Of a DNA stretch of 64,000 nucleotides, positions 39,085 to 62,779 are shown piece after piece (the stretch's first letter is position 1; each line of letters starts with the position of its first letter). A program made the position numbers and the translations under genes. Where the stretch lies: NCBI RefSeq assembly GCF_901933205.1, contig NC_044590.1, positions 14,659,501 to 14,723,500 on the forward strand, given 5' to 3'. The stretch comes from Camarhynchus parvulus (lineage: Eukaryota > Chordata > Aves > Passeriformes > Thraupidae). Under the pieces are notes generated by a model. That model saw nothing but the letters and a program-made list of their open reading frames with translations. It ran no database searches and was not told where the DNA came from.

Positions 39085-42000
39085 ATCTACAACTCTGAGC
39101 TGGAACATGAGTTTGGTAGTTTTGAAGACTGGTTGTGTATTTTCCCCCTTCATTGTGGCAAAGCAAATAAAGATGAAGATGGAAATGAGGATGAAAATTA
39201 TGTGGGGAAGTACAAGGTACTGTTTCATTTGGATCACATTTATGCTGCTTGTGGAAGAAGATCCTTATAACATGTATTTCAGAGCAAGCCAACACCAGTA
39301 AAACCTTGCAGAGTGCATGGGTGTGCAGTTTGGGCTGCAGCACAGCCAGGGTACCGTTAGTGCCTGTTGAAGCAATTGTACTTTGGTCCTATTGTTTTTA
39401 TCTTATAAATAAATCCAATTTAGATTTTTTAGCTGCTACAAGGAGAAAGCATGAAGCATAAAGGACTCATTCTGGTTGCAGCCTCTGGGTCTATTCAGTA
39501 TGCATATAAGTACTATATAAGTAAGCTTCACTGGTTTTAAGGTTAGGAAAACTTATTTAAAAGAGGCATCATCCTCCCATCCAGGAGCTCTTGAAGACTC
39601 TGAAATATCAACTACAGAAGTTGTAGCTCTCCCTAGAAAACGTTTGGTGTCCTCTGTCTTTGGCAATCCAGAGTGCCTAGAAGTGCTCATATCTGACATT
39701 GGCAGAGGCATGACCACCTGCAGCCTAAATTGCAAGCAGGGATTGCCTGGGCCATGTGGACATGATTTGACCTTTGGAAAGCACTGTCCCCATGGGCACA
39801 GAGTGTCTGTGGTCTGCACGGGGGAAATGGCTCTGATTTTCTAGTTGGCAGGTGAAGCTGGTGGCTCCTGTCCTTTCTGAGATATCCCCATGTATATCCA
39901 ACTGTTCCTTGAAAAGTGTTTTCTGCAGGGGTCCTTCTATGTCTACCCCAGTGAGGAAGCTGTTACAGAGCCCAAGGTCTCCCAGGGCATTCCAAGGAAC
40001 AGACCCATCAAGGTTCTTGTAAGAGTTTACATTGTTAAGGTAAGTCTCTGGGAGAGGTGACAGTATTGCTTGGTGGTCTCTTCCCTCCCTGTGGACCTTC
40101 TGCCATTCTCTGCTCAGTAAATGCGAGCAGCGGTGCTTGTGAAAAATATGATGCTGGCTTGAAGCCTCTGCCAGTGGAAGGCACCTACATCCTGTCCATG
40201 GAGTCTTCCATGCTTTGCAGCTTGAGGATGGGCAGATGGGCATTTCTTGGCTCCTCACATCTGCCTTGAGATCATGAGCAAGTAGGTGGGTCCACAGCTG
40301 AAGATATTAATGGCTCGTAGAGTGAGGATTTGTGTGGGATCAAGTGCCTGTTTCACTGCTGCGGTGGTTGCTGGAGGGACCTGACCAAGCGGGCTTGGGT
40401 GGTGTCAGGCCTGTGCAGTGTTCCTTGCTCAGGCTGCCCTCCACAGCTGTGTACAGCAGTATCCCTTATATATTCCAGGCTACAAATCTCTCTACAGCAG
40501 ACCCCAATGGCAAAGCAGACCCATATGTGATGGTGACTGTGGGGAAGCAGCAGAAGGACACTAAGGAGCGATACATTCCAAAGCAGCTCAATCCTGTGTT
40601 TGGAGAGTATGCAAGAAGGTTTCATCTAGTGGGTTTAATAAGAACAGTGCAAATCTGGGGCTTGAAATGTGGTTCAGCATGTAAGGTCTTCTGTTCCTTT
40701 CTGATGGAGAATCTTGTGCTTTTACACAAAGCCCTTGGGCATGTCTCTTGCCTCCAGCTAACTCAGGAGCCATCATGCTTTGGGTTAGGAGGTGAGCATA
40801 CCCAAGGATTTGATTTAAAATTGGAAGCCAAGCATTCCCTAACTCCAGGCCCACTACCTGAGCCATACATTCCCGGAAAAGGAATTCCTTTGTTTGAGCA
40901 TGCACACTGAAAATGTCACATACTGAATTTAGAGAGAACCAAAGGTTATCAGAGGCCTTTAAGTTGTCAAATACAGTTCTTAAATATATAGGATTATTGA
41001 AGCAGAGCATGTGTTTAATTTCCATTCTCTTTGCTAATTGTGCTTTCCCTGTTTGATTCTGTCCAGAGTTGTGGAGCTGACAGTCTCCTTTCCCATGGAA
41101 TCAGAACTCACTGTGGCAATATTTGATCATGATTTGGTTGGATCTGATGATCTGATTGGGGAGACCAAGATTGACTTGGAGAATCCATTCTACAGCAAGC
41201 ACAGGGCCAACTGTGGAGTGGCTACACAGTATGACTTGTAGGTAGCAATGTGACACGTGAGGACCACAGATATTCTTCTCACCTGCCACATGTGCGTAAT
41301 AGAGCTCCTCCTGTTCTGTGAGACAGAATATGCATTTGCAGGTGCTCCACAGATTCGCTACAAGTTACATGGATAACTCTATCTCTTTAGACCCCTACCA
41401 CCTTCCTGTGATAACTCTAATTCTTACTGCAATCTAATATACCTTGCATAAAATAGCAAAAAAACCTTTTCTATTCCTTATACATTGGTGTTCTGTGAGA
41501 AAAGTGCTTGCTTGACTCCGACCTCTTTAAGAAAGTACAGCAGTTTCTCTCGCAGCATTTTGTAAGCAGCAAACTCAGGACATCTGATTTCCTTTGGCCT
41601 CCTTCCATACGGATTCTCCAGATCTTCAGCCAAATTTCAGCAAATTTCTCTTCTCCTACCCTGCTATTGAAAAATTAGCTGTGGGAATGGAGCTGAGTAC
41701 TCAGCACAACTAAAAGTTCTTTCTCACTTAGGAACTGCATCTGGAATTGCTCCTGCTCCTAGCATTGCTTCTGCTGCTCAGAAGCTAATAGTTCTGTGGA
41801 GTGCAAGTCCAGCTTGTTTTCTGTCAGGAAAGAATTTGTTTAGCTTTTCATTCATTAAGACTTTTTGTAACCTCTTTAAGCCCAGTAGAAATCTGAGCAG
41901 GGTTCTAGTGATATAGCCTGTGCTTTGGGAAGGAAGGCTGTTTCAGAGCCTAGAAAAGAAACTTAAGCTGAAGAATTTCCTGATGTTTTCTTTTTCCATG

Positions 42001-44234: not shown

Positions 44235-44959
44235 GTGAGATGTGTTTCCATGCTAAACCTCAACATTGTTTCGGGGAAGGACCTTCTGGACAACTGGTTT
44301 CTAGCCAGCTGTCTGGTCGCCTGTGAATCTTACATATTGTCCCCTTCCTGGGTGGGTGACTGGAGTTGTGTCTGTGGATGGCTGGCCCAGCTATGAAGTG
44401 AGGACATTGGCCATGGTTGTCCTTTGCTCACACCTACCCTCTGACCTCTCATGATGCTTCTGAATACCCTTTCCTCAAGGAAATTCTGTCCATTGATGTT
44501 GTGTTCACAGCGTTGGTGACCCAGAGTTCTTCTTGTCTCCACAGGTCATTTAGCACTGGCTCTGATGAGGATACTGTGAGGGTAGCAATAGATCTGCTCT
44601 GCTTTTGAGCCTTGCCACCAGGCACCCCCATGGGTGATGGTATCCTTGCCTATACCTGCCTCCTCTGCATTGTCCCTTATCACTGCTGTTTTCCAAGAAC
44701 CTTGTTCTCCACCCTTGGCTTCTCCATCCTTAGTTTTGTGCAATGCAGCCATCTGAACTCATTGTTTTAATGTCCTGCACTGAAATCTCCTGTTCTCTTG
44801 GGTACTGGAGGTTTGAACAAAGCAGAGTCCTGCAGTCATGCTGGCTTTCTTTGGCATTGGAAATGCATGAGTCAGACCTATCACTTAGTTTTGTTGGTTT
44901 TGCTTAAGCATTGCATTACCATATGCTCCTTATTAAGACAGAGGGACGTGTTTACCTCT

Positions 44960-45634
44960 TGTCTTGGTTTGGAAAGACAGGAGTCTGCTAAGGAAGGCAG
45001 GAGCCTCTCTTGAAATTGAGAATGTAAACTCTCTCTACCTCTCTGAATTGCTACAATTTTAAATTAAGGGGCTCTCAGGCAAAGATATGGGAGCAGGCAA
45101 TAACAGTTCTTTAATAGGGAAGAAATAAAAAGGATAAAATAAACAATACAGTCTACTGGAACAACACTGACAGAGTCAGAACTTAACTTGACACCCTGTG
45201 GGTCTGGGTGTTGGTGGCAGTCCGATTGAAAATGTGGCTGCAGTCTTCTGAAGTATCAGGCGTGATTCTGTTGGAGCAAGGGGAATCTGTAGAGAAGGAT
45301 GTAGTCTTCCTCTGAAGATCCAGGAGGAAAAGGCAGCTGCTGTTCTTCTGGGGAATCTCGTGGAGAACAAAACTGAACTGCAATTTCAGAATCTCAGAGT
45401 ATATGGGGTAGCAGTGCTTGGCTCTTCTTTCTGGGCGGAGCATCTCACAATGGGATGTTACAGTTCTTATCAGTCATGCACTGATATTCAATAGTCTGTT
45501 ATCAGCGGAGGTCCCCTCCCGAGGAAGGTGTGAATGTGGTCATTCAAAGAGAGAGATAAGGCAAACTGCTCACTTGACAAGGTAATCAGCCATACAGATG
45601 GTAATGGAAAACATCTTGCATGCAATCTTCAACA
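44960..45634 (-). repeat. 3' LTR of the ERVL-like provirus (edited)
   Basis: TG...CA ends on the minus strand. It differs from the 5' LTR at plus-strand positions 45008, 45010, 45030, 45034, 45036, 45040, 45044 and 45205. In each case T stands here for C in the other LTR, always after a C. On the sense strand that is GG to AG. The remaining bases of the 675 look identical. Seven of the eight sites crowd into the U5 end. An ATTAAA poly(A)-type signal reads on the minus strand near 45110. Confidence 0.93.
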
Positions 45635-45655
45635 TTATCTACCCCTTTTCCTATT
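45635..45655 (-). promoter_or_regulatory. Polypurine tract of the ERVL-like provirus
   Basis: On the minus strand, directly upstream of the 3' LTR, the sequence is purine-rich (AGGAAAAGGGG then TAGATAA). This is the expected plus-strand primer site. Confidence 0.6.
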
Positions 45656-48600
45656 TCTATCTGTATCACAAACAAAAACTAAAACTTAAACTTTACACAC
45701 AGTCTTCACTTAAAACTAGGTTTCTCTGTGGCACACAACGGCTTTCTCTATCTTTCTGCATTACTTACTAAGTGCAACTAGGTCTTTGAGCAAAAACAAT
45801 TCTACGGATGGGTTTATCTTTGCCTGAGGTGGGAGTAATCTAAACAGTCTTTCTTAAAATACTTTTCATGTGTACAACAGGGACTTTATCTCTATCTACT
45901 GTGTGCAGTGGTTCAGACTGGGCAGGACTAGCTCGATTTATGGACTTTCTGGTGTTGACTATCTAGGTGGCTTTTGCTAGGTTCATTTCTCAATTTCTAA
46001 AAGTCCTCCCCCTGAGTGCTTTCAGGGTAGTTTTAAGTAGTCTATTGCACCGTTCAACTTTCTCGGCAGCTGGTGCATGATAGGGGATATGATATATCCA
46101 TTCAATGCTATGTTCTCTGGCTCAGGTGTTGATAAGGCTATTCTTGAAATGAGTCTCATTATCTGACTCAATTCTCTCAGGGGTGCTATGTCTCTACAGG
46201 ATTTGCTTTTCTAGGCTAAGGATGGTGTTCTTGGCAGTGGCATGAGGCACAGGGTGGGTCTCTAACTATCTAGTGGTGGCTTCTACTATGGTCAGCACGT
46301 AGCGCTTGCTCTGGCGTGTCTGGGGCAGTGTGATGTAGTCAATCTGCCAGGCCTCCCATACTTGTACTTGGACTACTGCCCACTATACCAGAGGGGCTTC
46401 ACTCGCTTGGCCTGCTTGATGGCAGCACACGTCTCACAGTCATGGATAACTTGTGAAATACTGTCTATGGTTAGATCTACTTTTCGGTCTCGTGCCTACT
46501 TATAGGTGGCATCTCTACTTTGATGACTTGAGGCATCATGGGCCTATCGAGCTAAGAACAACTCTTCTTTATGTTGCTAATCTAAGTCTATCTTTGACAC
46601 TTTTATTTTTGCTGCCAGATCTACTTGCTCATTGTTTCGGTGTTCTTCATTAGCTTGACTTTTGGGGACATGGGCATCAACATGACGGACTTTCACAGGT
46701 AGTTTTTCTAACTGAGCGGCAATGTCTTTCTATTCATCAGCAGCTCAGATCGGTTTTCTCTTACGCTGCTAGTTGGCTTTTTTCTACTTCTCTAGCCATC
46801 TCTACAGTGCGTTGGCTACTATCTATGAATCAGTGTAAAGGTAGAGCTTTGGCCACTTCTCTCTCTCAGCAATGTCTAGGGCCAGCTGAACAGCTTTGAG
46901 TTCAGCAAGTTGGCTTGATCTACTTTCTCTATCGGTAGCTTGTGCAACTTGTCGTGTGGGGCTCCATACAGCTGCTTTCTACTTCTGGTTCATCTTTACG
47001 ATGCGACAGGAACTGTCAGTGAAAAGAGCGTAGCGCATTTCTTCTGGGGGCAGCTGGTTATATGGAGGAGCTTCTTCAGCACGTGTTACTGGTTCTTGTT
47101 CTTCTTCGTCAGTCAGACTAAAGTTCTCACTTTCTGGCCAGTTTGTAATTATTTCCAGAATCTCAGGGCGATTTGGGTTTCTAATACGGGCGCGCTGTGT
47201 GATGAGAGCAATCTACTTGCTCCATGTAGCGTCAGTGGCGTGGTGGGTGGTGGGAACTTTCCCTTTAAACATCTACCCCAGCACCGGTAGTCGGGGTGCC
47301 AGGAGGAGTTGTGCTTCTGTGCTAATCACTTCTGAGGCAGCCTGGACTCTTTCATAGGCAGCTAAGATTTCTTTCTCTGTGGGAGTGTAGTTGGCTTCGG
47401 ACTCTCTGTAGCTTCGACTCTAAAATCTCAGGGGTCGGCTTCGAGTCTCTCTAGGCGCTTTCTGCCAAAGGCTCTAGGACAAGCCATGGTTCCCGGCTGC
47501 AGAGTAGAGCACGTTCTTCACTTCTGATCTTGTCTTGACTGGGCTAAGGGCAACTGCATGAGCGATTTCTTGCTTGATCTGGGCAAAGGCTTGTTGCTGC
47601 TCTGGGCTCCAGTGGAACTCGTTCTTTTTGCGGGTGACTAGGTAAAGAGGGCTCACAATCTGACTGTATTCAGGAATGTGCATCTTCTAAAAACTTATGG
47701 CACTCAGGAAAGCTTGCGTTTCTTTTTTGCTAGTTGGTGGAGACATAGCGGTGATTTTGTTGATGACTTCAGTGGGAATCTGACGCCGTCTGTCTTGCCA
47801 CTTCACTCTTAGGAACTGGATCTCTCGGGCAGGTCTTTTGACTTTGCTCTTCTTGATAGCGAAGCTGGCTTCTAGCAGAATCTTGATGATCTTCTCTCTT
47901 TTCTCAAATACTTTTATTGCCGTGTTTCCTTACACAATGATGTCATCGATGTACTGCAAGTGCTCTGGAGCTTCACCCTTTTTTAGTGCAGTCTGGATCA
48001 GTCTATGGCAGATGGTGGGACTGTGTTTCTACTCTTGGGGCAGTCGGTTCTAGGTGTACTGCACGCCTCTCCAGGTGAAAGCAAACTGGGGCTTGCATTC
48101 TGCTGCCAGAGGAATGGAGAAAAATGCGTTAGCAATGTCTATAGTGGCATACGACTTTGCTGCCTTGGACTCCAGCTCGTACTGGAGTTCCAGCATGTCC
48201 GGCACAGCAGCGCTCAGCGGTGGAGTCACTTCATTCAAGTCACGATAGTCTACAGTCAATCTCCATTCTTTGTCAGACTTGCGCACAGGCCAGATGGGAC
48301 TGTTGAAGGGTGAGTGAGTCTTGCTGACCACCTTTTGGCTCTCTAGCTCACGGATCATTTTGTGGATGGGGATCACAGCATCTCGATTCGTCCTGATACT
48401 GCCGGCGGTGCACTGTTGAGGTGGCAATTGGCACTCGTTGCTCTTCTACTTTCAGGAGACTTACTGCGGATGGACTTTCTGATAGTCTAGGCAAAGTGTT
48501 CAACTGCTTGATGTTTTCTGCCTCTACAGCAGCTATGCCAAAAGCCCATCTGAGTCCCTTTGGGTCTTTGTAATAGCCGTTCCGGAGGAAATCTATGCCC

Positions 48601-48900
48601 AGAATACACGGGGCCTCTGGGCCAGTCACAATAGGATGTTTTTTCTACTCTTTCTCAGTCAGGCTCACCTCGGCTTCTAACAGGGTCAATTGCTGTGATC
48701 CCCCCGTCACCCCGGCAATGGAAATGGGTTCTGCCCCCACATGTCCCGATGGTATTAGGGTACACTGCGCACCAGTATCAACTAAGGCATTGTACTTTCG
48801 TGGTTCTGATGTGCCAGGCTATCGGATCTACACCGTCCAGAAAATCTGGTTTTCCCGTACTTCTCCTTGGCTAGAGGCAGGGCCCCTCTAACCCTGGGTA
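45656..48900 (-). pseudogene. pol: ERVL-like pol remnant (protease, RT, RNase H, integrase)
   Basis: On the minus strand a protease DTGA motif lies at 48768-48779. An open RT segment at 48050-48427 holds SPIWPVRKSD and RLTVDYRDLNEV. The catalytic YIDD codons are at 47942-47953. An RT thumb/connection segment is at 47474-47683, RNase H near 47000, and integrase about 46000-46700. The frame is broken by many TAG and TAA codons at places where Trp (TGG) is expected in this family, for example at 48050-48052 and 48029-48031. GGN glycines have become AGN or GAN at several sites. The damage is therefore mostly one substitution type, not random decay. Confidence 0.88.
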
Positions 48901-50264
48901 TACATGGTAGAGGTACTTTCTAGGGGATCTGACAGATCATACTCAGCAGCTCGGTCATGGGAGGTTGAGGCTACTTTTACTTTACTGGAGTTCTCTCGAT
49001 TAGTGTTTCCCTCTTTGAGTTGACGCACTCGTGCTGCCAGGACAGAAGTGGGTTTTCTATCTCACCTTCCCATGTCTTCCCCATGATCACGCAGGAAAAA
49101 CTACAGGTCAGCTCGTGGGGTGTACCCTCTCTCTGTAGTTGGGGAACGTTGGACTCTGACTCTGGGGCTTGTGACTCGCACTGGTGCCATATGGGAACTG
49201 TTCTTCCTCACCTCTTCCCTCATCTCCCTCATCTCTTCTCTGAGTTCTTGGACTACGGCAGAGACATGAGCCTGCATTGGGCCATTAATCATACTTTCAT
49301 AATTCTTAAGCTTGTTGGCCACAGAACTCACTGTCTCTCGGTTGGTGTCAGCATTAATTGTTGCAATAAAGGTGGTGTATTGGGATGGCTTTAGATTTGC
49401 CAGGCTCTACAACATTTGCCCCGTGCACCTGACTTTGTCGGGGTCATTATCATGCTGTCCATCCCTCCCAAAAAGTACTTCCAACACTGCCACTTCTCTC
49501 AGCTGTTGGATCTTTTCTTCAAGAGTCTTCCAGCGCATTCTATGGTGGTGCTCTTGCATTCTTTCTCTGTGAACAAACCTCTCTCTGACACTTATTAAAA
49601 GCCGCTCTCAGAGGGAAAGGGACCCTGGCTCCCTTACAAAAATCTGATTGATACTTGAGTCTTGGGTCAAGGGTGCCAAATTCCTTGCCTCACCACCATC
49701 CAGCTGGACACCTGTACCCATAAGATCTCAGACCTGAAGTAGCCAGGTTGTATAAGCTTCACGTCCCCGTCGTACAATGTCTTTGTGCAGATTACGGAGA
49801 CTTTCAAATGCGTCAGGGACTTCGGTGATGATCGCAACTTCTGGTTCTCCTGTGGCTTGTGAGGGCCCTCTCCTATCTGGGTGCTCTGCTTTCATCTTAG
49901 ATCTCCTTGTTTCTACAGGGGCAACTGCTGCTGGCTGTGATTGCCTTTGCAATTCAGCTGGAGCTTGGACAGTTGTAACATCTGTGGGTTCTGCTGCTGC
50001 TGCACTGTTAGACTCTCCCTCTTCAGGGTGGGGGGAAGGCCTCTCACCAGCTGGGGAAGTGTATTCTTTCAGCATCTGGCCTATCTCCTTCACCAAACCC
50101 CCCACCCAATCTGGGTAGTTCACATCTGGAGTGGGTTGTGGGGCAGGGTCAGGCTCTGGGGCAGCAGCATCCCTAGCTGGGGTGGGCTGTGGGGCAGGGT
50201 CAGGCTCTGGGGCAGCAGCATCTCTAGACTCTGGTGGCGCATTAGGTTCTGGGGTAGGTGTCAT
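48901..50264 (-). pseudogene. gag: ERVL-like gag remnant
   Basis: The start lies at 50264 on the minus strand. The first 178 codons (down to 49728) are open and begin with a proline/alanine-rich segment containing a duplicated EPDPAPQPTP unit, followed by a basic and acidic stretch. A later segment (49101-49331) has a charged coiled-coil-like run (LREEMREMREEV). The first half, next to the primer site, is clearly less edited than pol. The later part has stops. The identification rests on position and composition, because I do not recognise a standard capsid motif. Confidence 0.65.
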
Positions 50265-50786
50265 GGTAGTTATCTAGGTAAGTCTCCCCTTCTCTCTGAA
50301 TGCTAAATAGAGCAGGCTTATCAGCAACACCAGCCACTGTATGATATCATTAATATTTAGAGTGGATCTGAACCCTTCAAAAACTGGTGGGGCAGACTCA
50401 AAGAAATGGCTAAAAGGTTGGGAGAAGATTTCGCCTGGGGTCATTTCCTTACAGCAGGTGCCATTATTAAAGTAACCCCAAAAACACACACTTAATGTGT
50501 GATAGCTGTGAATCTATGTGCCTGCTTTCCAGAGGAAGTTAAAAATCCATGAATTCCTCACCTTATTCACCCATAACACAAACCGGATAACAGACACAGT
50601 AGCCTTGGTTATAGGACCCATGTTTAGATAAGGGCCTATAAATGGGAGAAATACAGCCACGATCACGTGCCACCCAAACCGGGGCAAGTTGGACCACATG
50701 GTGTCGCTTAATGAGGTTTCTATAGCCACACACAAAAGTTAGATTACTCAAGAACTGTTATTCCCTTTTGGTTTCTGTGCCCTCGA

Positions 50787-50804
50787 GCCCCACGTTGGGC
50801 GCCA
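50787..50804 (-). promoter_or_regulatory. Primer binding site, tRNA-Lys type
   Basis: Read on the minus strand the 18 bases are TGGCGCCCAACGTGGGGC, five bases inside the 5' LTR. This is the pattern complementary to the 3' end of a tRNA-Lys used by many retroviruses. It also confirms the minus orientation. Confidence 0.9.
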
Positions 50805-50809
50805 AAATC

Positions 50810-51484
50810 TGTCTTGGTTTGGAAAGACAGGAGTCTGCTAAGGAAGGCAGGAGCCTCCCCTGAAATTGAGAATGTAAACCCTCCCCACCCCTCCGAATTG
50901 CTACAATTTTAAATTAAGGGGCTCTCAGGCAAAGATATGGGAGCAGGCAATAACAGTTCTTTAATAGGGAAGAAATAAAAAGGATAAAATAAACAATACA
51001 GTCTACTGGAACAACACTGACAGAGTCAGAACTTAACTTGACACCCTGTGGGTCCGGGTGTTGGTGGCAGTCCGATTGAAAATGTGGCTGCAGTCTTCTG
51101 AAGTATCAGGCGTGATTCTGTTGGAGCAAGGGGAATCTGTAGAGAAGGATGTAGTCTTCCTCTGAAGATCCAGGAGGAAAAGGCAGCTGCTGTTCTTCTG
51201 GGGAATCTCGTGGAGAACAAAACTGAACTGCAATTTCAGAATCTCAGAGTATATGGGGTAGCAGTGCTTGGCTCTTCTTTCTGGGCGGAGCATCTCACAA
51301 TGGGATGTTACAGTTCTTATCAGTCATGCACTGATATTCAATAGTCTGTTATCAGCGGAGGTCCCCTCCCGAGGAAGGTGTGAATGTGGTCATTCAAAGA
51401 GAGAGATAAGGCAAACTGCTCACTTGACAAGGTAATCAGCCATACAGATGGTAATGGAAAACATCTTGCATGCAATCTTCAACA
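50810..51484 (-). repeat. 5' LTR of the ERVL-like provirus (unedited)
   Basis: 675 bp, TG...CA on the minus strand. It keeps the C-rich (sense G-rich) blocks that are altered in the other LTR, such as CCTCCCCTG at 50854-50862 and CTCCCCACCCCTCC at 50881-50894, so it serves as the unedited reference. Confidence 0.93.
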
Positions 51485-53114
51485 CCTCTGAAATGGATTC
51501 AGTGTAGGCGAAGTGGTTTTTCTTGGAGCAGAAATAAGCAATCTTTCATAGCCTTAATTTTTTCCCTGTGTAAAATCGAATCTCATGTCACTCTCAAGTG
51601 CTGGGAATGGAGAGAACCAAGCAGGGGCTTTCTGATGAGAACTTTCCTTGCAGGATCAAGCCTTTGGTCCTTGAAGAGCTGGAGAGTGGTCTATCTCTTG
51701 AAGTGTCTTTGCTCTCTTCTCTCGTCAGGGCTCCTTGCACATGTGGATTGACATGTTTCCAAACGATGTCCCTGCACCACCGCCCGTCAGCGTCAAACCA
51801 CGACTGCCTGTCAGGTAGCACCTGTGGGGGTAGACCTGGGGCTGGTGGGCTGCAGGGAGGATCAATGTCCCTTGCCATGGCTGGTGGGATGTGCCACAGG
51901 GGACTGGCTGAGGGTCCGTGCTAGTGTAGCATGTAGACCTCTTTCCTCCAATTCTGACCACAGGATGTTCTCTTGAGTGTATCATGTTGGGCCCTAAGAG
52001 CTTCAGCTGCACAAAGGTTTGGGGAAGGGTTGGTCAATGTCTCTATGGCTGGACATAAAGATAATAGAAACCCAGGCCAGAGTTACTCATCAAACTCTCT
52101 TCTGGCTAGTGGACAGATGTCCTTGGGAGTCTGGAGAAATGGAGTTGAGGGAGGAAATCTGCTGTTTTCAAGGATCTAAGGGTACTTTTGAGATGGAGGA
52201 TCCAGGTTATTCTCTGACGTTCACCTGAAAGGAAAAGAGATAATAAACATGAATTTCAGCAAGGGAAACTCTAGCTGACTATAGGGAAAATATCTTCCCA
52301 GTGAGAGTGAAGCCACCCTGGAATAGGGACAGAATGACTCAGATGTGCTAGGATGTCCATCCTTTGTGATATTAAAAACTGATGCAGACAAGGCCCTGCA
52401 CAATTGACCTACTATGAAGCTAGAGCAAGAGCTTGGAGCAGAGACTGCAGAGATCCCTTCTTGCCTAAGCTTTTCTGTGCTCCTATGGCTTAGTAGAGCA
52501 GGGTGGATTTCCCATGCAACGGGGATTTGGTTTGCAAAAGCTACCTGTATTGGCTGTGGGTGTTTGTCTTGTAGGGTTGTAGTGTCCAGAAAGGGTTTTA
52601 TGCCTAGCAGTGAGACTGCTGGGCTGTGCTTGGCGGGAGGAGCAGAGGGAACCACACTGCTGGGAATTTTCAAGTCCTGCTGCTCTGGCGTTGTGCTCAG
52701 GGCTTGATCTGCCCTCCCATGCACCAGGGACAAGGGAATGTGTCTCACCTCTGTGTCCTTCCCACAGCTATGAGCTCCGTGTGATTATCTGGAACATGGA
52801 CAATGTGATCCTTGATGATGTCAACCCAGTAACAGGAGAGCCTTCCAGTGACATCTACGTGAAAAGGTCTGGTGGGAATGAGTGGGAGGCCAGAGCCTGG
52901 CTGCCCTGCTCCCTGCCCTGGCCCACATGCTCACTTGCCTCCTCTGAACCTCTGGTGTGAGGTGCCTACTCCAGTCCTCTTCATGGGCTGCTCTAGCCCC
53001 AGAGATGTTGTCCAGGTGTTGCTCTGGTTTGACCCTTTCCTGCTACCCCGTGGTGTTCAGTGCTTCCATTCTTCTGCTCTGCCTCTCAGGCTGGCTGACA
53101 AGGGTAGAGGATAA

Positions 53115-54809: not shown

Positions 54810-55148
54810 TGTTGTATTGCATCTAGCTGTCCCCTCCCATACCTGGTTCGGTGGGCTGTCCCACGGGTGGTCCCTCCCCATTGGCATCCCATTGGCCATG
54901 GTCCTCTTTCCTCGCCCCCTCTCCCCTGGACAAAACCCCATAGCAGGCTGTCTGGGGTTCTCTTTCTTCACCTGGGTGGCTGCACCACCTCACGTCCTGT
55001 CTCAAGCTAATAAACGGATACCTACACCCACGTGGAGGAAGAGCGCTCCTTGTGTTTTGTCCTTCGTCTATGCTGGTTCCGTGCTGGGCTTGGATTCGTG
55101 CTGGCCAGATTGGACTCATATAAGCCCAGAAACCCACGGAACGCAGCA
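54810..55148 (+). repeat. 5' LTR of the ERVK-like provirus
   Basis: TG...CA, 339 bp, with an AATAAA signal at 55009-55014. It differs from the 3' LTR at three bases: a C/T in the TTTC[C/T]TCGCC block, a G/C in CCCTG[G/C]ACAA, and C/T in CCTCA[C/T]GTCC. Confidence 0.92.
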
Positions 55149-55972
55149 GGTGGCTCCCAACGTGTTTGTCACCCACGACGACCACGAAGAGGCTGGTACT
55201 CCCCACTGGTGGATTATGTTAGCTTTTGGGAATTCCACCTTCCTCTGCCTTTTTGTCGCATTTTTGCTGGTGAAAAGCCTGAGGTTGGACCGACATCCCG
55301 CCAGCGCCCGAGGCGGACCGGTTCCGGCGAGGAACTTTTTACAGCCATCACAGCCTAGACACAGTCCCCAGAGCGGGGTGAGTATTCCCCACGGCTGTTA
55401 GGGGACCCCGGGGGGACCCTCAGAGGGTGGGGGGGCACTCCCGGTGCAGGGAAAATCCAGTCCTAAAGAGGATTTGCGGTTTCCGCGCGGCTGCGCGGCA
55501 GCGCGGCTCCGCCACTCCGGCAGTGCCTGTGCACGGTTTCAGGGACTCCAGCAGCGTTTACCCACGGCGAGCGGCTCCCGGGGCCGGTGGCACCGCCGCC
55601 GGGGAGCATGGGTTCGCAACACAGGCGAGATTCGCGCGTTCCACTGCTGCGGCAGCGCGGGCGGAGGGGCAGACTCTGCCGCTTGTGTTTTCGCTGGGAG
55701 CGGAGGACCCAGAGCGGCGCCGGCACCTGGCACGGAGGAGCTCCAGCCGACCACGTGGCAGCCACGTGGTGGGGGGTTGCCGAGCAGCTGCTGCTCACCC
55801 TTTTAAAAAGCCGCGGGGGCTTACGTAAACAGCTTCGTCTCCCCCGCAGAGGCGGCGGGGGGCGGGGGGAGCTGCCTGGATTCTTTCCCGGTTTGGCTGT
55901 GGACTAAGTGCTTTCGGTTTTCGTTTGTACAGGCTGTGAAAAGGTAGATTTACGTGCTGCAAAAAGCTAAAA
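55149..55972 (+). other. ERVK-like leader with primer binding site
   Basis: Two bases after the LTR comes TGGCTCCCAACGTG (from 55151). It agrees with the tRNA-Lys-type primer site at 13 of the first 14 bases and then diverges, so the primer tRNA is uncertain. The rest of the leader is very GC-rich (about 55400-55860) and should contain the packaging signal and the splice donor for env mRNA. Open frames of 100-130 codons here are by-products of the GC content. Confidence 0.65.
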
Positions 55973-57949
55973 ATGGGTGCGAAGTTTTCTGTAGCGCAGA
56001 GGAGCATTTATACCCTACTTTTAAAACTCCTAAGTAGTCAAAAGGTTACAGTTTCCAAAGCAGTTCTGAAACAGTTTGCAAGTTGGTTGTATCTTCATTT
56101 TCCTGAGCTTACCCAGCACAATGTTAACTCTATGTCTACCTGGAACAAAATTGGAGCGGTGTTAACAGCAAAGGTCGAACAGGGAGATAAAACAGTGTCT
56201 CCGTTTTTCCCTGTGTTCCTGGTCATTCGGAAAGAGGTTTCACAAAGAGATGTAAAAGGAAAGCCAGAGGAAATCTCACCTGCAGTTTCCCCTGTCCCCA
56301 AGCCCAAACCCTCCGCCCCTGAACTGAGAGAAAGTGGTGTTTCCCGGCAATTACGGGGTGCCTGGTGCTGCCAATGCTGCTGCCCTCCCTCCCATTCCCA
56401 AAATGGCTGCGACCACATGGTGGGCATGCATAATGCTGCTGGCCGCATGGCTGGAGCCCAAAATGGCGGCAGCCACATGTTTCAGCCCCCCACTCACCCT
56501 TCTTCTTCCCACAATCCCTTTGGCCCACCTGTCCCCTCCCCCAACCCCTTCCGGTCCAACAATCCCTTCCTTCCCCTAGACGCTCCTCCCCCTCCCTTCG
56601 GGTCTCCGCCCCCCATTGCATCATCCGGTTCCCACGGTTGCCTCGCCCCCCTGCCTGCAGCCCCCTTACCTGGGCCCCAAGAGGGTCGAGGGCTGGGGGG
56701 ATGCGGCCAGGGCCTGGGGGGGTGGGGCCCTGCCCGGTTCCCACGGGGGTGGGGCAGGGGGAGGGGAGGTCCCTCCTCCCAGTTACCAAGGTGCCGGGGT
56801 GGGGGGGGCAGAGGCAGGGGGTGTAACCCCTCCCAGTCTCCAGGGGGGTGGGGTAAAGGACGTTTCCCTGCCTGCTTCCCAACGCAGTGGGGGAGTGCGT
56901 GGTCCCCTTCCTGGTCCCCAAGGCGGTGTGGCATGGGGAGGGGGTAGCCCCCCCACCGGGTCCCATGGGGGTGGGGCTGAAGGGACAAATCCTGGAGTCC
57001 CAAACCGGGAGGAAGGATTTATCCCCATGGTAGCCCCTGTCCAATACACAGGTGGTAGGACTGGTCCTAGAACATACCAGCCCTTCTCATATCACTCTAA
57101 GTGTGAGTTATGTAAAAGTCAATTAGAATTTGGAAGAAATAGTGAAATTTTTAGAAGCATGATGAAAGCCACGTTAACATCTCTTGAATTTGTTCCTGCT
57201 GACATTGTAGATCTTTTCCGATGCTTGCTTACCCAGTCAGAGTTCGACCTATGGGAAAGCTCTTGGAAGAGATTGCTTAGGGATCTCATGGAAGAACTTA
57301 AACAAAACCCCCAGGGTGCCAAAGATTTAGAGAATAATAACATTACTTATGAACATCTGTGTGGTGAAGGGGAGTGGGCTAAGCCGGAGGACGAGGCTCG
57401 GGTGTTGTCAAAATTCAATAAGATGAAATCCTCTAGATAAGATTTCAAATATTGCACATAAGGCTTTTAACCAGCTACCAACTGCTGAAGCTAGTGGTAG
57501 CTTCTTTGACAATAAACAGTCTCCTTCAGAAAGTTTCTTGCAGTTTGTCGACCAGCTCCGTGCACAGGTTGAGAGACAAGTTCGGGACCCCAACACACAG
57601 ATGGAGATAGTGAAAGAGATGGCACAGAGGAATGCCAATGAAGTCTGCAGCAGGGTACTCCTTGGACTGCCCCTCAACCCCCCACCTACACTGGCAGAGA
57701 GGATGGAAGCCTGTGCTAGGAAGGCGGAACTGTTTGCTGCACGGGAAACGGGGTCAACGCTGACAAGCCCAGAGATGGTGGCCGCTGCAGTCAGGAGGCA
57801 ACACATGTCACCAGAGCAACTTCATCTGCTTCATATGCAAGAAACCAGGACACTTTGCCCAGGACTGCCCCCAAAGCCAGCAACTAAAGACACCCTTCAC
57901 ACCAAAAAACCCCGATGCCAGCGCCCACCCGCTCGGCGCCTCGACATAA
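55973..57949 (+). pseudogene. gag: ERVK-like gag, frame-broken
   Basis: Matrix starts at ATG 55973 with an N-terminal MGAKFS, a myristoylation-type signal. A proline-rich region follows, then a Gly/Pro-rich degenerate repeat (about 56690-56990), capsid (57050-57815) and a zinc knuckle of the form CX2CX4HX4C at 57827-57868. The matrix and zinc knuckle are in one frame, the first capsid half one base on (open to 57440), and the second capsid half one more base on (57436 to about 57815). Three indels are implied, together a multiple of three. Gag would end at TAA 57947-57949. Confidence 0.85.
57904..57910 (+). promoter_or_regulatory. gag-pro -1 ribosomal frameshift site
   Basis: The heptamer A AAA AAC lies exactly in the zinc-knuckle (gag) frame, 37 bases before the gag stop. 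A one-base back-slip enters the protease frame. This heptamer is the classic slip site of betaretrovirus gag-pro junctions. The GC-rich bases just after it could form the stimulating structure. Confidence 0.8.
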
Positions 57950-58746
57950 ATGCAGCGGGTTTCCCTGAGGGGGAGGCCTCCCCCAAAACAGGACAGGGGG
58001 AGGAAGGGAAGCGGGATGCGGGAACACAAAATAACCATTTACAGGGTAAAATCTGGTGGTCTCACAAGCGTTTCAGGCTTGTGACCACCAAAGATTTTGC
58101 TTTCAGGTCTACCCAGTGGATGGTCATTGGAGTGGACTTGCCAGAAGAGTTCCAGAACTTGACCAAAGATCATACAAGATTGTACAGTGAGTACTTTGTC
58201 ATTGGGGACACTGCACACACACCTATGGAGATTGAGGTGGCCCCCATGACCATCAGAGGGGACATACCTAACCTCATTCTCCTGGCGCGCTGTCCACAGC
58301 CACCCTTCCGTTTGGCCCAGGGGCAAATCATCGCCCAGGCCATTCCTGTTCCAGCAGAAATTTCAGTAGATGACAAGGCACCAGGTGTATACTGGGCAGA
58401 AATAGTTGGCGAGGACAAACCCATTATGGGATGCAACCTGAAGCGTGGAACAGAACACCTCCACGTGGAAGGGTTACTTGACACTGGGGCAGATGTGACA
58501 ATCATACCTGAAATGTTGTGGCCGTCACATTGGGATCTGCAGCCCGTGGCTGGTCAAATTCAAGGTGTAGGAGGATTCACATTGGCAAAGATATCAAAGA
58601 GCATCGTGCAAATTGAGGGACCAGATGGAAAATTGGCCAATGTCCGCCCATTTGTTACTAATTACAAAGCTCCCCTGTGGGGTAGAGACACCATGTCCCA
58701 GTGGGGGGTCAAATTGGTCATCCCTAAAACACCCCAGGGTTTTTAA
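57911..58746 (+). CDS. pro: ERVK-like pro (upstream domain and aspartic protease)
   Basis: It is open from the slip site to TAA at 58744-58746. The first part (about 58040-58350) is in the place where betaretrovirus-like elements carry dUTPase and looks like a degenerate version of it (FRSTQWMVIGVDLP, QGQIIAQAIPVP), but I do not see all catalytic motifs. The protease has DTG at 58480-58488 within LLDTGADVTIIP and a C-terminal LWGRDTMSQWGV block. The enzyme cleaves the Gag and Gag-Pol precursors. The frame is intact. Because of the gag indels, an open frame from 57538 runs straight into pro without frameshifting. Confidence 0.8.
58737..58743 (+). promoter_or_regulatory. pro-pol -1 ribosomal frameshift site
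   Basis: G GGT TTT, in the pro frame, sits immediately before the pro stop TAA at 58744. A -1 slip enters the pol frame, which then runs open into the RT. The position and pattern fit a pro-pol slip site. Confidence 0.7.
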
Positions 58747-61700
58747 AAGCAGCCACTGTCGAGCGCCCCGCCCACAAGTTAACATGGCTGAGAAATGATC
58801 CAGTCTGGGTAAAACAGTGGCCACTCAGTAATGAAAGGATAGAGGCGCTCGAGGAGCTTGTGGCAGAACAATTGGCCAAAGGACACATTGAAGAGACATC
58901 TAGCTGCTGGAATTCCCCAGTCTTTGTAATAAAAAAGCCAGGGAAGAACAAGTGGCGGCTCCTCCATGATTTAAGAGAAATAAACAAGAGAATTGTGGAC
59001 ATGGGGTCTCTCCAACCAGGGATGCCCTCCCCAACGATGCTCCCCCAGAATTGGCAATTGGCTGTCCTGGACATCAAGGACTGTTTCTTCCATATTCCCG
59101 TACACCCAGAGGACGCGCCACGGTTTGCCTTCTCGGTTCCCACCACCAACCGAAAAGCCCCAATGAAGCGCTACCACTGGAAAGTATTGCCTCAGGGCAT
59201 GAAATGTAGTCCATCCATCTGCCAGGGGTACGTGGCTTTGTTGCTGTCCCCAGTGTGCGCCCAGAAAAAAGAGGCAATCATCCTACACTACATGGATGAT
59301 GTGCTTGTGTGTGCCCCCGATGACATAATACTCCAAGACACACTTGACCTAGTGGTTAAAGTTTTAACCTCTGCTGGATTCCAACTGCAGGAAAACAAGG
59401 TTCAGAGAATGCCACCTTGGAATTACCTGGGTTTACAAATCACTGCGCGGACCATTGTTCCGCAGAAATTGGAAATTAAGATTGATCCCAAAACTCTAGC
59501 AGATCTCCATTCCTTGTGTGGGGCTTTGAACTGGGTCAGGCCTTGGCTTGGTCTCACTAACAGAGACCTAACTCCCCTTCTTAATTTACTGAAGGGAGAG
59601 AGAGAGCTAGCCTCTCCCAGGGAACTGACCCCAGAGGCAAAAAAACCGCCCTCCAAAAAGTGCAGAAGGCTTTGGCCGAGAGGCAGGCTCACCGTTACAA
59701 GCCTGAGCTGCCTTTTGAATTCATTGTTTTGGGGAAGTTACCACACTTACACAGGTTGATATTCCAATGGTTTGAAGTACAAAAGGATCCACTTCTAATC
59801 ATAGAGTGGGTTTTTCTCTCTCATCAGCGATCCAAAACCATCACACAGCCACAGGAGCTAATAGCTCAGCTGATCTGGAAGGCCAGGGTAAGATTGCGTG
59901 AGCTGGCCGGTTGTGACTTTGAGTGCATTCACCTTCCAGTCAGCCTTTCTAAGGAGGGAAAGAGCTCTCCCGAGAGGCTGACCAGAAAATGGTTCGACAA
60001 CCTGCTCCAGAGCAATGCCAGTCTCCAGCTATCCCTGGACAGCTACAGTGGACAGGTATCAGTCCAGGCCCCATCACACAAGCTGTTCCACGAGGAATTC
60101 CACCTCATTGCTCCTGAGAAAAGGAGTCTTAGGCCACTCAAGGCGCTTACAGTGTTCACTGATGCATCCGGAGCCTCCCACAAGTTGGTGATGACTTGGA
60201 GAAATCCCCAGACCCAGCATTGGGAAGCTGATGTTGAGTTTGTGGAAGGGTCGCCCCAGATTGCTGAGCTTGCGGCGGTGGTAAGAGCCTTTGAGAGGTT
60301 CTCAGAGCCAATCAATTTGGTTACTGATTCAGCCTATGTGGCGGGGGTAGTGTCCAGGGCGGAGCAGGCAGTTCTCAAAGAAATCAAGGATGGGCATCTC
60401 CACAGGTTGCTCTCAAAACTAATTTACTTGGTTTCGCAGCGGGAGCACCCCTTCTATGTGATGCACGTGAGGTCACACACTGATTTGCCAGGCGAGATCG
60501 CAGAAGGTAATTGCAAGGCAGATGCCCTTGCCACTCCGGCAGAAATGGCACGCCTTCCAGACATCTTTCAGCAGGCAAAGCTAAGTCACCAACAATACCA
60601 CCAAAATGTTCCAGGTCTAATCCGTCAGTTCCAACTAACTCGCAGTCAGGCTCGAGCCATTGTGGCCACCTGTCCCAATTGCCAGCTTCAGGCAGTGCCA
60701 TCCCTGGGTGTTGGGGTTAACCCCCGAGGCCTTGGGAGCTGTGAAGTGTGGCAGACAGACATCACACACATTCCCAGTTTTGGTCGCATGAAATACGTAC
60801 ATGTCAGCATAGACACATACTCAGGTGCGGTTTATGCCTCTGCCCACATAGGGGAAAGGGCTGCGCATGCCAAACAGCACTTGCTGCAAGCCTTTTCAGT
60901 ATTGGGGGTCCCTAGGGAAATTAAAACTGACAATGGCCCAGCGTATGCCTCCAAGGAGTTCCTAGAGTTTGTCCAGCAGTGGGGAGTGGAGCATAAGACA
61001 GGCATTCCCCACTCCCCCACAGGTCAAGCTGTGATTGAGCGTGCCCACCACACGCTCAAAGAGGTCCTGGCTAGGCAGGGTAATTCTGCAGCGTGGATGA
61101 CACCACAACAAAAGCTCTGCAAAGCCTTGTTTACTATCAATTTTCTCAATTGTTCCTTTGAAAACATGAATCCTCCGGTAATATGTCATTTCAATACTAA
61201 CAACCAGTTTAAGTTGTCACAGCGTCCACCAGTTCTCATTAAGGACCCGGAAACCAAGGGTCCTTATGAGCTCGTCACCTGGGGTGTCGGGATCTCTAGC
61301 TGGTCAGAGTGACCCCGAGAAAAGTTCGAAAGTCTCTTTTCCCAGCCCGGCGCTTGAAGAAGGAGTCAGGGCTCTTCATTTCTCGGTCTCAAGGTTGTTT
61401 ATTTTATCTTATCTATAAAAAGTTTTCTCCTGCCCTGCCGAGGTCAGCTCAGCAAGACAGTTCCAGGCACTCTCCGCCCGCTCCCAAGGCTGTGTCGTCT
61501 TTTATACTACAAATCACGTATATCATATTTACTTTTACTTTCCAATACCTATCACCCATGTTAGACAGTGCACCTCTATTCTAAACCAATCCCCAAGTGC
61601 CAACATCACAGCAGAAGATGGAGGCCAAGAAGAAGAAGGAGAAAGGCTGGACACACCCAGATTCCTCCATCTTGCCTCCTGAACCCCCATACCAAAAAAG

Positions 61701-62081
61701 CCAAAATCTTCTTTTCCAGCCCATGATAATTTCACTATTATTCTACCTAAACTGTTGTGGCTTGCTGATCTTCATATAAGGTTGGTAATTTGCTCCATGG
61801 GTCATAATCAAAACCACAGGTGTCTTGGGCTCTGTGACAGGGTCTCTGAGACCCCTAGCAGGGGTCCTGGTGTCCTGGACAGCCAGAGGTGTGTCCTGGG
61901 TCCTGACACTGGGGGTGTGGTTACGCGTGTGTATCCACCCCCTCAGGCCTTCGATGGATACCCCAAAAGTGGGTAAAACCTTTTGTCCCCAAAAATGCAG
62001 CTCCAGCAGATGGGGAGAAGAAGCAAGCAGCTGTCGCTTCCAAGAGAAGACGCCGCTGGAAGAAGAAGGAAGAAGCTTCCT
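58744..62081 (+). pseudogene. pol: ERVK-like pol (RT, RNase H, integrase), two breaks
   Basis: The RT frame runs from the slip site, with LDIKDCFFHIPVHP and YMDD at 59289-59300. At 59639-59645 a run of seven A (six expected) shifts the frame. The second frame (open to 61312) has RNase H (FTDASG near 60155) and integrase with an HHCC-type zinc motif (HQQYH, CPNC) and the catalytic Asp, Asp and Glu blocks (WQTDITH, KTDNGPAY, QAVIERAHHTL). The integrase C-terminus is interrupted at 61284 by a nested LTR, and its frame resumes at 61915 with a lysine/arginine-rich end, stopping at about 62081. The intact enzyme would copy and integrate viral DNA. Confidence 0.88.
61279..61914 (-). mobile_element. 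Nested solo LTR inside integrase, 6-bp TSD
   Basis: A 624-bp LTR spans 61285-61908. On the minus strand it starts TGTCAGGACC and ends GATCCCGACA, with TGTC/GACA inverted ends. CTGGGG flanks it on both sides (61279-61284 and 61909-61914). On the minus strand a TATAAAAG box (near 61500) and AATAAA (near 61397) are in the right order for an LTR. The family differs from the host provirus. The class II type is inferred from the 6-bp duplication. Confidence 0.9.
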
Positions 62082-62189
62082 AAACCAGTTAGCTGTATTC
62101 TGGCAGACCCATGAACTTGTATGTGTCTTGTTCAAAAATGTTTGTTTTCCTTTGTAGAATAGAAAATCTACCTCCCACCTAACCTCAAG
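62082..62189 (+). promoter_or_regulatory. Probable env splice acceptor region
   Basis: The stretch TTTGTTTTCCTTTGTAG (62141-62157) is a good pyrimidine tract and AG about 30 bases before the env-type ATG at 62190, as expected for a spliced env mRNA. Confidence 0.5.
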
Positions 62190-62718
62190 ATGAGCCCTGC
62201 CCGAGTGGTCATCCTGTTCACGCTGAGCAGTCGCACAGCTGCGTGGATCGTTTCTCAGCCACGCCAAAACATCTGGGTGACCCTGGCACAGACACTCCAA
62301 TATGCCTGTCCACAGCAGCAGCAAAGGAGATTTCCTCCTGCTGCTGCATGGACACGAGTGCCAGGAATTTGAGGGACTGTGCTGCATGAACCTAACATCA
62401 AAAGCACCCAACGTCCACGCAGCTCTCTAAGAAATGAAAGGCCTGATCGGACGAGTTGAGCAGGAACTCGAAGACTGGTTCTGCGGATTGTTCAGGGACT
62501 GGGGTTTCTCGGGGTGGTGGGCCTCTATAATTAGGACAATTTTGTTGTTTCTTGTTGTTCCTTTCCTAGTCATGTTAGCATTTGGGATTCTACGCCGCAT
62601 AATTTTAAAGGCTATTAATGGTTTGGTCTCCAGCACCACAGGAGTCAACTGCTCAGAGTTTGTGGAACTAAAGCAAATTGACAGGCCCGCAAACTATGAG
62701 TGGTGGACAAATTCATAA
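62190..62718 (+). pseudogene. env: ERVK-like env remnant, surface subunit deleted
   Basis: ATG 62190 begins a short signal-peptide-like segment and the start of a surface-subunit-like region. This breaks off near 62310. The sequence then jumps to the transmembrane subunit in another frame, with a CX6CC motif (62359-62385), a TAA at 62428-62430 and an open 94-codon C-terminal part (62434-62718) with a hydrophobic membrane span (IIRTILLFLVVPFLVMLAFG). Most of the surface subunit and the fusion region are missing. CX6CC is the covalently linked, gamma/alpha-type env arrangement. This remnant cannot make a functional envelope. Confidence 0.8.
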
Positions 62719-62764
62719 TCAGCAGCAGAAATAGTCTGGTACATTTCCTTTTAGTTTTAGTTAA

Positions 62765-62779
62765 CAGAAAAGGTGGAGG
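62765..62779 (+). promoter_or_regulatory. Polypurine tract of the ERVK-like provirus
   Basis: The bases from 62765 (CAGAAAAGGTGGAGG) directly precede the 3' LTR and are nearly all purine, as expected for the plus-strand primer. Confidence 0.7.

Follow-up and report, generated by a model that had tools for sequence, protein, structure and literature searches.

A provirus in the genome of Camarhynchus parvulus raises the question of when, and by what, so many of its G residues were changed to A. The element occupies positions 44960-51484 of the window, a stretch of 64,000 nucleotides (NC_044590.1, positions 14,659,501 to 14,723,500) whose numbering is used throughout, and a 5-bp target-site duplication (CCTCT) lies on both sides of it. 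Its features are as follows:

44955..44959, no strand: target-site duplication, copy 1 (CCTCT)
44960..45634, minus strand: 3' LTR, 675 bp, with ten edits common to both LTRs and eight private ones
45008..45205, minus strand: the eight edits of the 3' LTR alone, seven inside 45008-45044 and one at 45205
45642..45652, minus strand: polypurine tract (PPT), adjoining the 3' LTR, its GG sites edited less than their neighbours
46373..48442, minus strand: pol frame as compared, heavily edited, TGG of the comparison copy turned to stop at 19 of 32 codons
48050..48427, minus strand: reverse-transcriptase piece without stops (Pfam RVT_1, 4.8e-8; top solved chains 'Pr125Pol', 7e-14)
48443..50264, minus strand: gag/protease frame as compared, less edited, TGG of the comparison copy turned to stop at 8 of 13 codons
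50787..50804, minus strand: primer-binding site (PBS), which the editing minimum adjoins in each of the four edited copies compared in full
50810..51484, minus strand: 5' LTR, 675 bp, with ten edited GG sites, every one also edited in the 3' LTR, and no private edits
51485..51489, no strand: target-site duplication, copy 2 (CCTCT)

ERVL (class III) elements have a tRNA-Leu primer-binding site, a dUTPase and no env, and their pol is nearest to foamy-virus-like pol. The PBS found here is, we assume, of the tRNA-Lys type. The 'Pr125Pol' chains, which we take to be of foamy-virus type, scored best against the reverse-transcriptase piece, with lentiviral reverse transcriptases behind them, in a comparison by score. 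The provirus is a young, full-length, ERVL-like element on the minus strand. Searches for relatives in IMG/VR and GTDB genomes, and in a phage collection, found none.

Alignment of the two LTRs, 675 bp each, required no gaps and gave 8 differences in 675 positions. At each of them a plus-strand C in the 5' LTR is a T in the 3' LTR, that is, a G-to-A change on the viral sense strand, and at 8 of 8 the edited C is preceded by an unchanged C. The original prediction had listed precisely these positions (45008, 45010, 45030, 45034, 45036, 45040, 45044 and 45205), reading each as a sense-strand G-to-A followed by G, and had seen no ordinary substitution; the alignment likewise contains none. Comparison with other copies revealed ten further edited GG sites, which are present in both LTRs of the focal provirus.

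The internal region had been predicted to carry the same bias, with Trp codons turned into stops, and the alignment to relatives from the same genome that had been proposed as a check bore this out. With one natural copy as the reference, 206 of 453 internal GG sites were edited, but no more than 11 of the 993 G residues in other contexts (Fisher, 3e-105). Relative to copy C2a, the internal region showed 217 G>A, 3 C>T, 4 T>C and 1 A>G changes together with 3 transversions. With six copies that are not markedly edited taken as references in turn, G>A changes numbered 215-228, all other substitutions summing to 10-24. Neither equal counts of G>A and C>T nor a lack of GG bias, the outcomes named beforehand as speaking against editing, was found. 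The 27 new in-frame stops in the two frames compared all fall where the comparison copy has TGG. The ratio GG/(GG+AG) is normal in the host flanks (0.39 and 0.42), whereas the 3' half of the provirus has 0.16.

We sampled 39 copies in this genome, with a bias towards edited ones, and 16 of them were edited. Besides the four edited copies compared in full, five others were so compared, and in these one or two GG sites out of about 450 had changed. Among 29 further copies, six lacked a 5' LTR at the expected position and one had a partial 5' LTR, leaving 22 pairs, and 33 LTR pairs were kept in all, 11 of them edited. C2b, C2_16.6, C3_99.2 and C4_66, among the 33, have no clean matching target-site duplication; none of these belongs to the 11 edited pairs, in all of which the 5-bp duplications match. 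At the GG sites of the edited pairs, the two LTRs share 89 edits; a further 82 are confined to the 3' LTR and none to the 5' LTR, with 206 sites edited in neither (p 4e-25). One GA-type difference, in C16_18, runs the opposite way, in the 5' LTR. Six 5'-only GG differences occur among the 33 pairs, and every pair concerned (C31_0.99, C4_66, C2_85 and C24) shows ordinary differences as well. By LTR thirds from U3 to U5, 3'-only edits rise weakly, in the direction expected (12/47, 17/41 and 26/57 of the GG(A/T) sites, those with an edit in both LTRs being set aside). Edits common to both LTRs amount to 8/55, 40/81 and 19/76 in the same thirds, and are highest in the middle one.

These data refute a post-integration origin of the LTR differences, whether through ordinary decay, mutation at CpG or gene conversion. 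We found nothing in favour of such an origin, and it has practically no chance of being correct: the focal LTRs show no ordinary substitutions and eight of eight differences in CC context, the edited pairs divide 82 to 0 between 3'-only and 5'-only sites, the flanks are normal, and the six 5'-only GG differences are confined to pairs with ordinary changes.

The edits could also have been inherited from a parent copy that was already edited, with at most the LTR differences being new. Pairwise independence was tested on 4 of the 16 edited copies, and shared edits exceeded the expectation from context and position in 6 of 6 pairs (z 1.6-3.2). The excess is modest, however, and site preference would yield one of this kind. 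Moreover, the copies share far from all of their edits: the focal provirus and C31a, with 206 and 205, have 143 in common where context and position predict 132, and the private 3'-LTR edits are not the same from copy to copy. Inheritance is very unlikely. The edits of the four fully compared copies are for the most part independent of one another, in keeping with one event per copy and with the earlier proposal that this copy was edited during one reverse transcription.

Along the focal provirus, editing is weak near the PBS and strong near the PPT. For the four edited copies compared in full, a hazard proportional to distance from the PBS outperformed a constant hazard (AIC gains of 92, 111, 28 and 32). 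Eight further edited copies had both a PBS-near and a PPT-near piece, and in all eight the PBS-near piece was the less edited (p 0.033 to 2e-11). Step and linear models described the rise about equally well in the four copies (AIC, step/linear: 468.2/469.4, 442.6/441.1, 429.5/428.7 and 263.4/266.6), the best step position lying 2.07-2.69 kb from the 5' LTR in all of them. Over the first 768 bp from the PBS, pooled for 12 edited copies in 128-bp bins, editing was 6/24, 26/84, 28/60, 6/36, 13/46 and 15/70. Pooled editing is thus above zero close to the PBS and shows no rise over these 768 bp, so that a simple exposure model is incomplete.

Template-switching recombination between an edited and an unedited template, rather than exposure time, might also produce a rise. 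A reference-free reading gave some reason to think so, as GG/(GG+AG) passes from 154/370 to 63/396 near 48534, with a step beating a linear trend, and when real edits are used step and gradient models perform equally. Separate crossovers would not be expected to coincide, however, and the four copies agree on the region of the best step; in addition, edits are found on either side of the step, and the PPT side is the more edited in all eight of the further copies. We regard recombination as unlikely. The sharp step at 48534 was itself rejected: with real relatives it becomes a rise, for which gradient and step are about equal in the four copies.

Within the last 1.3 kb, GG(A/T) sites of the PPT were edited at 19 of 48 positions, as compared to 696 of 1043 elsewhere (16 copies; p 2.6e-4). 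This is suggestive of protection of the PPT from editing, and is put no higher because G runs, within or next to which the PPT sites are found, themselves reduce editing (C at +1).

The sequence context of the edits bears on the identity of the enzyme. In the 3' half of the focal provirus, 24 of 58 GGG sites were edited, along with 71 of 83 GGA and 38 of 44 GGT sites; in C1a the corresponding numbers were 1/58, 26/83 and 17/45. Isolated GGG runs in the focal copy read GAG in 21 cases, AGG in 4 and AAG in 11, and were untouched in 30 (GAG 8 and AGG 1 in C1a), so that the middle C is edited above the last; the first positions of GGG are the least edited. WRC-type targets, GT and GC on the sense strand, were edited at 0 of 124 and 0 of 155 sites in the same 3' half. 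The preference is for (A/T)CC*, with CCC* disfavoured, unlike that of human APOBEC3G and unlike the WRC preference of AID. To our knowledge, no host enzyme is known to prefer (A/T)CC*. TCC has also been named a hotspot of mouse APOBEC3.

A single search of the genome with the PF08210 family returned six exon matches, which we assigned to AID, two APOBEC1-like genes and APOBEC2; no APOBEC3 gene was seen among these six. Both APOBEC1-like exons carry HxE...PCxxC. The original prediction had invoked a bird AID/APOBEC enzyme (APOBEC1-like or another) acting on minus-strand cDNA with a CC preference, a footprint typical of mammalian APOBEC3G. Strand, GG context and gradient uphold the action on minus-strand cDNA. 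At the dinucleotide level the editing resembles that of APOBEC3G, but it disfavours CCC, a hotspot of the human enzyme (PMC5391955). An enzyme with human APOBEC3G specificity would account for the CC dinucleotide preference and the minus-strand gradient, yet the order of editing within GGG is the reverse of what that hotspot predicts and the six PF08210 exons were assigned to other genes; this reading is scarcely credible. AID acting with its usual WRC preference seems improbable: an AID exon is present, and A/T at -2 together with avoidance of CCC recalls the hot and cold spots of AID, as far as these are set out in PMC5391955, but the unedited GT and GC sites already contradict it, unless the host AID has changed specificity. 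One of the two APOBEC1-like proteins is the leading candidate and may well be the editor; AID is an unlikely one, and an enzyme beyond those found here is a further alternative. The enzyme would presumably be located in the reverse-transcription complex.

Deamination of minus-strand cDNA during reverse transcription, including a late stage at which the 3' LTR is single-stranded, is strongly supported because strand, GG context, the rise from PBS to PPT, the 3'-LTR-only edits and the normal flanks all point to it, and it is very probably the work of a host enzyme of the AID/APOBEC family. Such an enzyme would convert C to U at 5'-(A/T)CC* on minus-strand cDNA, during the single reverse transcription that preceded the focal insertion. 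Editing would track the time for which each part of the minus strand is single-stranded, shorter on the PBS side and longer on the PPT side. Edits that precede the copying of plus-strand strong-stop DNA would enter both LTRs; the minus strand of the 3' LTR would then be displaced again, and edits made after that would appear in the 3' LTR alone.

Ultra-edited LTR elements were reportedly found in the zebra finch by Knisbacher and Levanon in 2016, a study known to us through citations in PMC6523648 and PMC12548423. For the zebra-finch element TguERVl1_I-int, G>A accounts for 392 of 475 mismatches in 5,486 bp (Table 3 of PMC12548423). The likeness, so far as those citing papers convey it, lies in bird ERVL elements with a massive G>A excess. 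LTR asymmetry, gradient and trinucleotide context were measured here. The consulted parts of PMC12548423 describe 3'-LTR-specific G>A in 4 of 21 two-LTR Mtv proviruses of mice (39 G>A), explained by a second single-stranded stage of the 3'-LTR minus strand; its authors state that no other retrovirus had been reported to show such LTR differences, and go on to describe some in MLV. As here, edits common to both LTRs accompany G>A private to the 3' LTR, and one Mtv provirus shows a sharp drop of editing in its 5' half. The Mtv editor is mouse APOBEC3, with T(T/C)C or XTC (PMC12548423), whereas we found GG sites with (A/T)CC*, 82 sites in 11 pairs, and no APOBEC3 in the PF08210 search. HIV-1 hypermutation by human APOBEC3G shares the sense-strand G>A and a gradient tied to the PPT, but has twin gradients (Suspene 2006, as cited in PMC7760323 and PMC12548423) with two peaks, whereas we fitted one rise to the PPT and found CCC* disfavoured. 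Anole lizard APOBEC1, a DNA mutator that restricts retroelements in a species without APOBEC3, offers a possible non-mammalian parallel to the APOBEC1-like candidate; in the portion of PMC3880073 consulted the editing is in L1, not in LTR elements as here.

Earlier publications already cover heavily edited ERVL elements in the zebra finch and, in mice, edits restricted to the 3' LTR; what is added here is the combination of both in a bird, together with the (A/T)CC* motif. For birds, the literature searched yielded no account of edits private to the 3' LTR, in a search whose LTR-directed part did not recover even PMC12548423. Counts against a reference cannot place massive G>A editing within the life cycle. 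The two LTRs of one insertion provide an internal clock, being identical by construction and then marked in the 3' copy only, and the 82 versus 0 marks in 11 edited pairs tie the editing of this family, like that in mice, to reverse transcription, even though the PF08210 search showed no APOBEC3 gene. For edited insertions, raw LTR divergence overstates age. Together, the (A/T)CC* signature and the presence of AID plus a pair of APOBEC1-like genes yield a short list of candidates for the editor of bird retroviruses.

The provirus occupies the minus strand of the window and is bounded by two LTRs of equal length:

50810-51484, minus strand, 5' LTR, 675 bp
44960-45634, minus strand, 3' LTR, 675 bp

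A 5-bp target-site duplication is found on either side of the element. The ungapped alignment of the two 675-bp LTRs recovered the eight differences of the original prediction at the same eight coordinates. As had also been claimed, in all eight the 3' LTR shows a C to T change on the window's plus strand, which corresponds to the element's minus-strand cDNA, and the preceding C is unchanged in 8/8. A stop-free piece of the reverse transcriptase matched Pfam RVT_1, and its first match among solved structures was to 'Pr125Pol' chains, which we take to be those of foamy viruses; a match of this type would agree with an ERVL-like element. Elsewhere in the window, we noted an exon encoding a C2 domain whose nearest matches are ferlins (40332-40910; otoferlin and myoferlin, about 2e-11), an inverted pair of about 617 bp that is 94.5% identical (7022-7638 and 9968-10582) and a minus-strand reverse-transcriptase piece (1857-2429; RVT_1), presumably from a LINE of the CR1 type.

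Relatives from the same genome were taken from the best 40 of 2487 candidates in a search with the LTR, and from the best 40 of 198 in a search with the stretch adjacent to the polypurine tract (PPT). The whole internal region was compared in 10 copies, the window copy included; for 29 further copies the last 1.3 kb was compared, together with the first 0.77 kb in the 23 for which the 5' LTR was found. Every comparison set one natural copy against another, with no consensus. At least 20 GG>AG changes (G to A before G on the viral sense strand) were present in the sampled parts of 16 of 39 copies (4/10 fully compared and 12/29 further), a share that is uninformative on prevalence because both source lists were ranked by similarity to an edited sequence.

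Relative to copy C2a, 206 of 453 internal GG sites of the window copy were changed to AG versus 11 of 993 other G residues (Fisher 3e-105), and the internal region thus has the bias attributed to it. The corresponding numbers of changed GG sites were 205 in C31a, 112 in C1b and 56 in C1a, with one or two in each of the five remaining fully compared copies. Alignment to relatives from the same genome had been proposed as a check; over about 5.1 kb, the window copy differed from each of six copies by 215-228 G>A changes, all other substitutions together amounting to 10-24. Sense-strand C>T, the expected product of plus-strand editing, accounted for only 3 or 4. The predicted conversion of Trp codons was also found, with 27 new stops in the compared frames, every one at a TGG codon (8/13 in gag/protease, 19/32 in pol). 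The ratio GG/(GG+AG) was 0.16 in the internal 3' half and normal outside the element, at 0.39 and 0.42 in the 1.5-kb flanks and 0.43 in the 45 kb to its left.

On the plus strand, at a distance of 3.3 kb, is a second provirus (54810-63118) that has 339-bp LTRs (54810-55148 and 62780-63118) and gag p24, protease, RT, RNase H and integrase domains. Its two LTRs differ at three sites; no G/A before G on its own sense strand is among them, and one is a C/T after C. The most edited copy seen was C66 (DNA pieces L057 and L058), in which all 69 GGA and GGT sites of the last 1.3 kb were edited (41/41 and 28/28). Edits in this copy spill over into GA (32/109), and 17 GA changes are private to its 3' LTR.

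That each copy was edited in a single event, as first proposed for the window copy, agrees with the finding that the four fully compared edited copies share edits only modestly beyond expectation. The window copy and C31a have 143 edits in common, against 132.2 expected from context and position, and the excess over the six pairs of these copies corresponds to z values of 1.6-3.2. So modest an excess argues that the four copies, out of 16 edited ones, that this pairwise test covers were edited separately, their common ground being site preference and not descent.

The sites preferred by the editor were defined by the bases around the target. Within the window copy's 3' half, edits were present at 71/83 GGA, 38/44 GGT, 20/42 GGC and 24/58 GGG sites; in the lightly edited C1a the values were 26/83, 17/45, 4/42 and 1/58. 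Read on the minus strand, the edited base is a C that follows another C, with A or T favored and C or G disfavored at position -2. A regression over four copies ordered the -2 bases as T, A, G, C, and favored T after the target. Isolated GGG runs of the window copy read GAG in 21 cases, AGG in 4 and AAG in 11, with 30 untouched, so that the middle C was edited more often than the last. TC targets (sense-strand GA) were seldom edited (8/215), the exception being the nearly saturated C66. The APOBEC3G-like CC preference of the original prediction holds for the C before the target, but the hotspot given for human APOBEC3G, CCC (PMC5391955), is not preferred in the edited copies. AID is described as preferring WRC and avoiding SYC (PMC5391955), whereas WRC targets, sense-strand GC (0/155) and GT (0/124), were untouched in the 3' half of the window copy. 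For mouse APOBEC3, the context given is TCC (PMC5391955); this context is used here also, yet ACC is used equally.

An edit made before plus-strand strong-stop DNA is copied would enter both LTRs. Once the strong-stop DNA had transferred to the opposite end and the 3' LTR had its minus strand displaced, a later edit would be confined to the 3' LTR. In all, 33 LTR pairs could be compared: the first set supplied 11, and the 29 further copies 22 after six without a 5' LTR at the fetched place and one with a partial 5' LTR had been set aside. Among the GG-type differences, A was in the 3' LTR in 83 cases and in the 5' LTR in 6, and these six all fell in C31_0.99, C4_66, C2_85 and C24, pairs that have ordinary differences too. 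In the 11 clearly edited pairs, each with matching 5-bp target-site duplications (11/11), GG sites of the comparison LTR were edited in both LTRs at 89 positions, in the 3' LTR only at 82, in the 5' LTR only at 0 and in neither at 206; the window copy has ten edits in both and eight in the 3' LTR only. In C16_18, a single GA-type difference runs in the opposite direction. This is the pattern expected from minus-strand editing in time order. A 2025 paper on APOBEC3-edited Mtv proviruses of the mouse gives the same displacement explanation, with 39 such 3'-only sites in 4 proviruses (PMC12548423) against 82 in 11 pairs here. By LTR thirds, the GG(A/T) edits present in both LTRs of the 11 edited copies numbered 8/55, 40/81 and 19/76, with a peak in the middle third.

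Editing rose along the element. Over the 250 bp that follow the 5' LTR, 0, 1, 0 and 0 of 21 GG sites were edited in the window copy, C31a, C1b and C1a, respectively, and in the last bin 15, 14, 8 and 6 of 20. With distance from the primer-binding site (PBS) as the sole positional parameter, a proportional hazard gained 92, 111, 28 and 32 AIC units over a constant one in these four copies; a step model performed comparably, with a small advantage in two copies and a small disadvantage in the other two. The best step lay 2.07-2.69 kb from the 5' LTR in all four (about 48100-48800 in the window). Of 12 further edited copies, the 8 with both end pieces entered a comparison of the PBS side with the PPT side, and the PBS-near piece was less edited in 8/8 (p 0.033 to 2e-11). 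During reverse transcription, minus-strand synthesis runs from the 3' end to the PBS, and the plus strand then covers the minus strand from the PBS back; the time that the minus strand spends single-stranded therefore increases with distance from the PBS. The direction of the rise is the one predicted from this established knowledge. When the first 768 bp were pooled over 12 edited copies, however, there was no rise and the start was not near zero (6/24, 26/84, 28/60, 6/36, 13/46, 15/70), so the simplest exposure model fails in places. Within the last 1.3 kb, 2 GG(A/T) sites of 69 stood out as the only ones edited in fewer than 30% of the 16 copies: one in the PPT (45642-45652), the other about 360 bp upstream of it in a second run of purines (about 46006-46012). 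The second run could possibly be a second plus-strand primer, or could simply show an effect of the G run.

A search of the genome with the APOBEC_N profile gave six exon matches, including those in one cluster:

G000:C1:86731000-86760999 (host DNA pieces L105-L107), AID and two putative APOBEC1-like genes, the two opposite in strand to AID, APOBEC_N exon matches

The closest solved chains to the AID gene were AID (4e-53); the Pfam AID model was not listed for the same exon. The two further genes lie at most 25 kb from AID. The first is clearly APOBEC1-like in sequence (best Pfam match APOBEC1, 7.7e-40; closest solved chain APOBEC1, 1.9e-23). The second may be APOBEC1-like, less surely so: its closest solved chain is APOBEC1 (1.8e-17), and its best Pfam matches are SNAD4 (6.6e-33) and APOBEC4_like (2e-28), with APOBEC1 fifth (2.6e-22). 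By eye, the two diverge clearly after PCxxC. The fourth gene is APOBEC2 (Pfam 3.5e-60), and the HxE...PCxxC motif is present in 4/4 genes. Lizard APOBEC1 is described as a DNA mutator that restricts retroelements (PMC3880073). We infer, with somewhat more confidence than doubt, that a candidate APOBEC1-like enzyme was the editor.

The kind of phenomenon is known: zebra finch is described as standing out among 111 vertebrates for especially strong editing (PMC6523648), and a zebra finch ERVL element with 392 G>A changes is listed in Table 3 of PMC12548423. The literature searched yielded no description of 3'-LTR-only editing in any bird. What is added here is the occurrence of 3'-LTR-only marks outside mammals, a trinucleotide signature of the editing and a pair of candidate genes.
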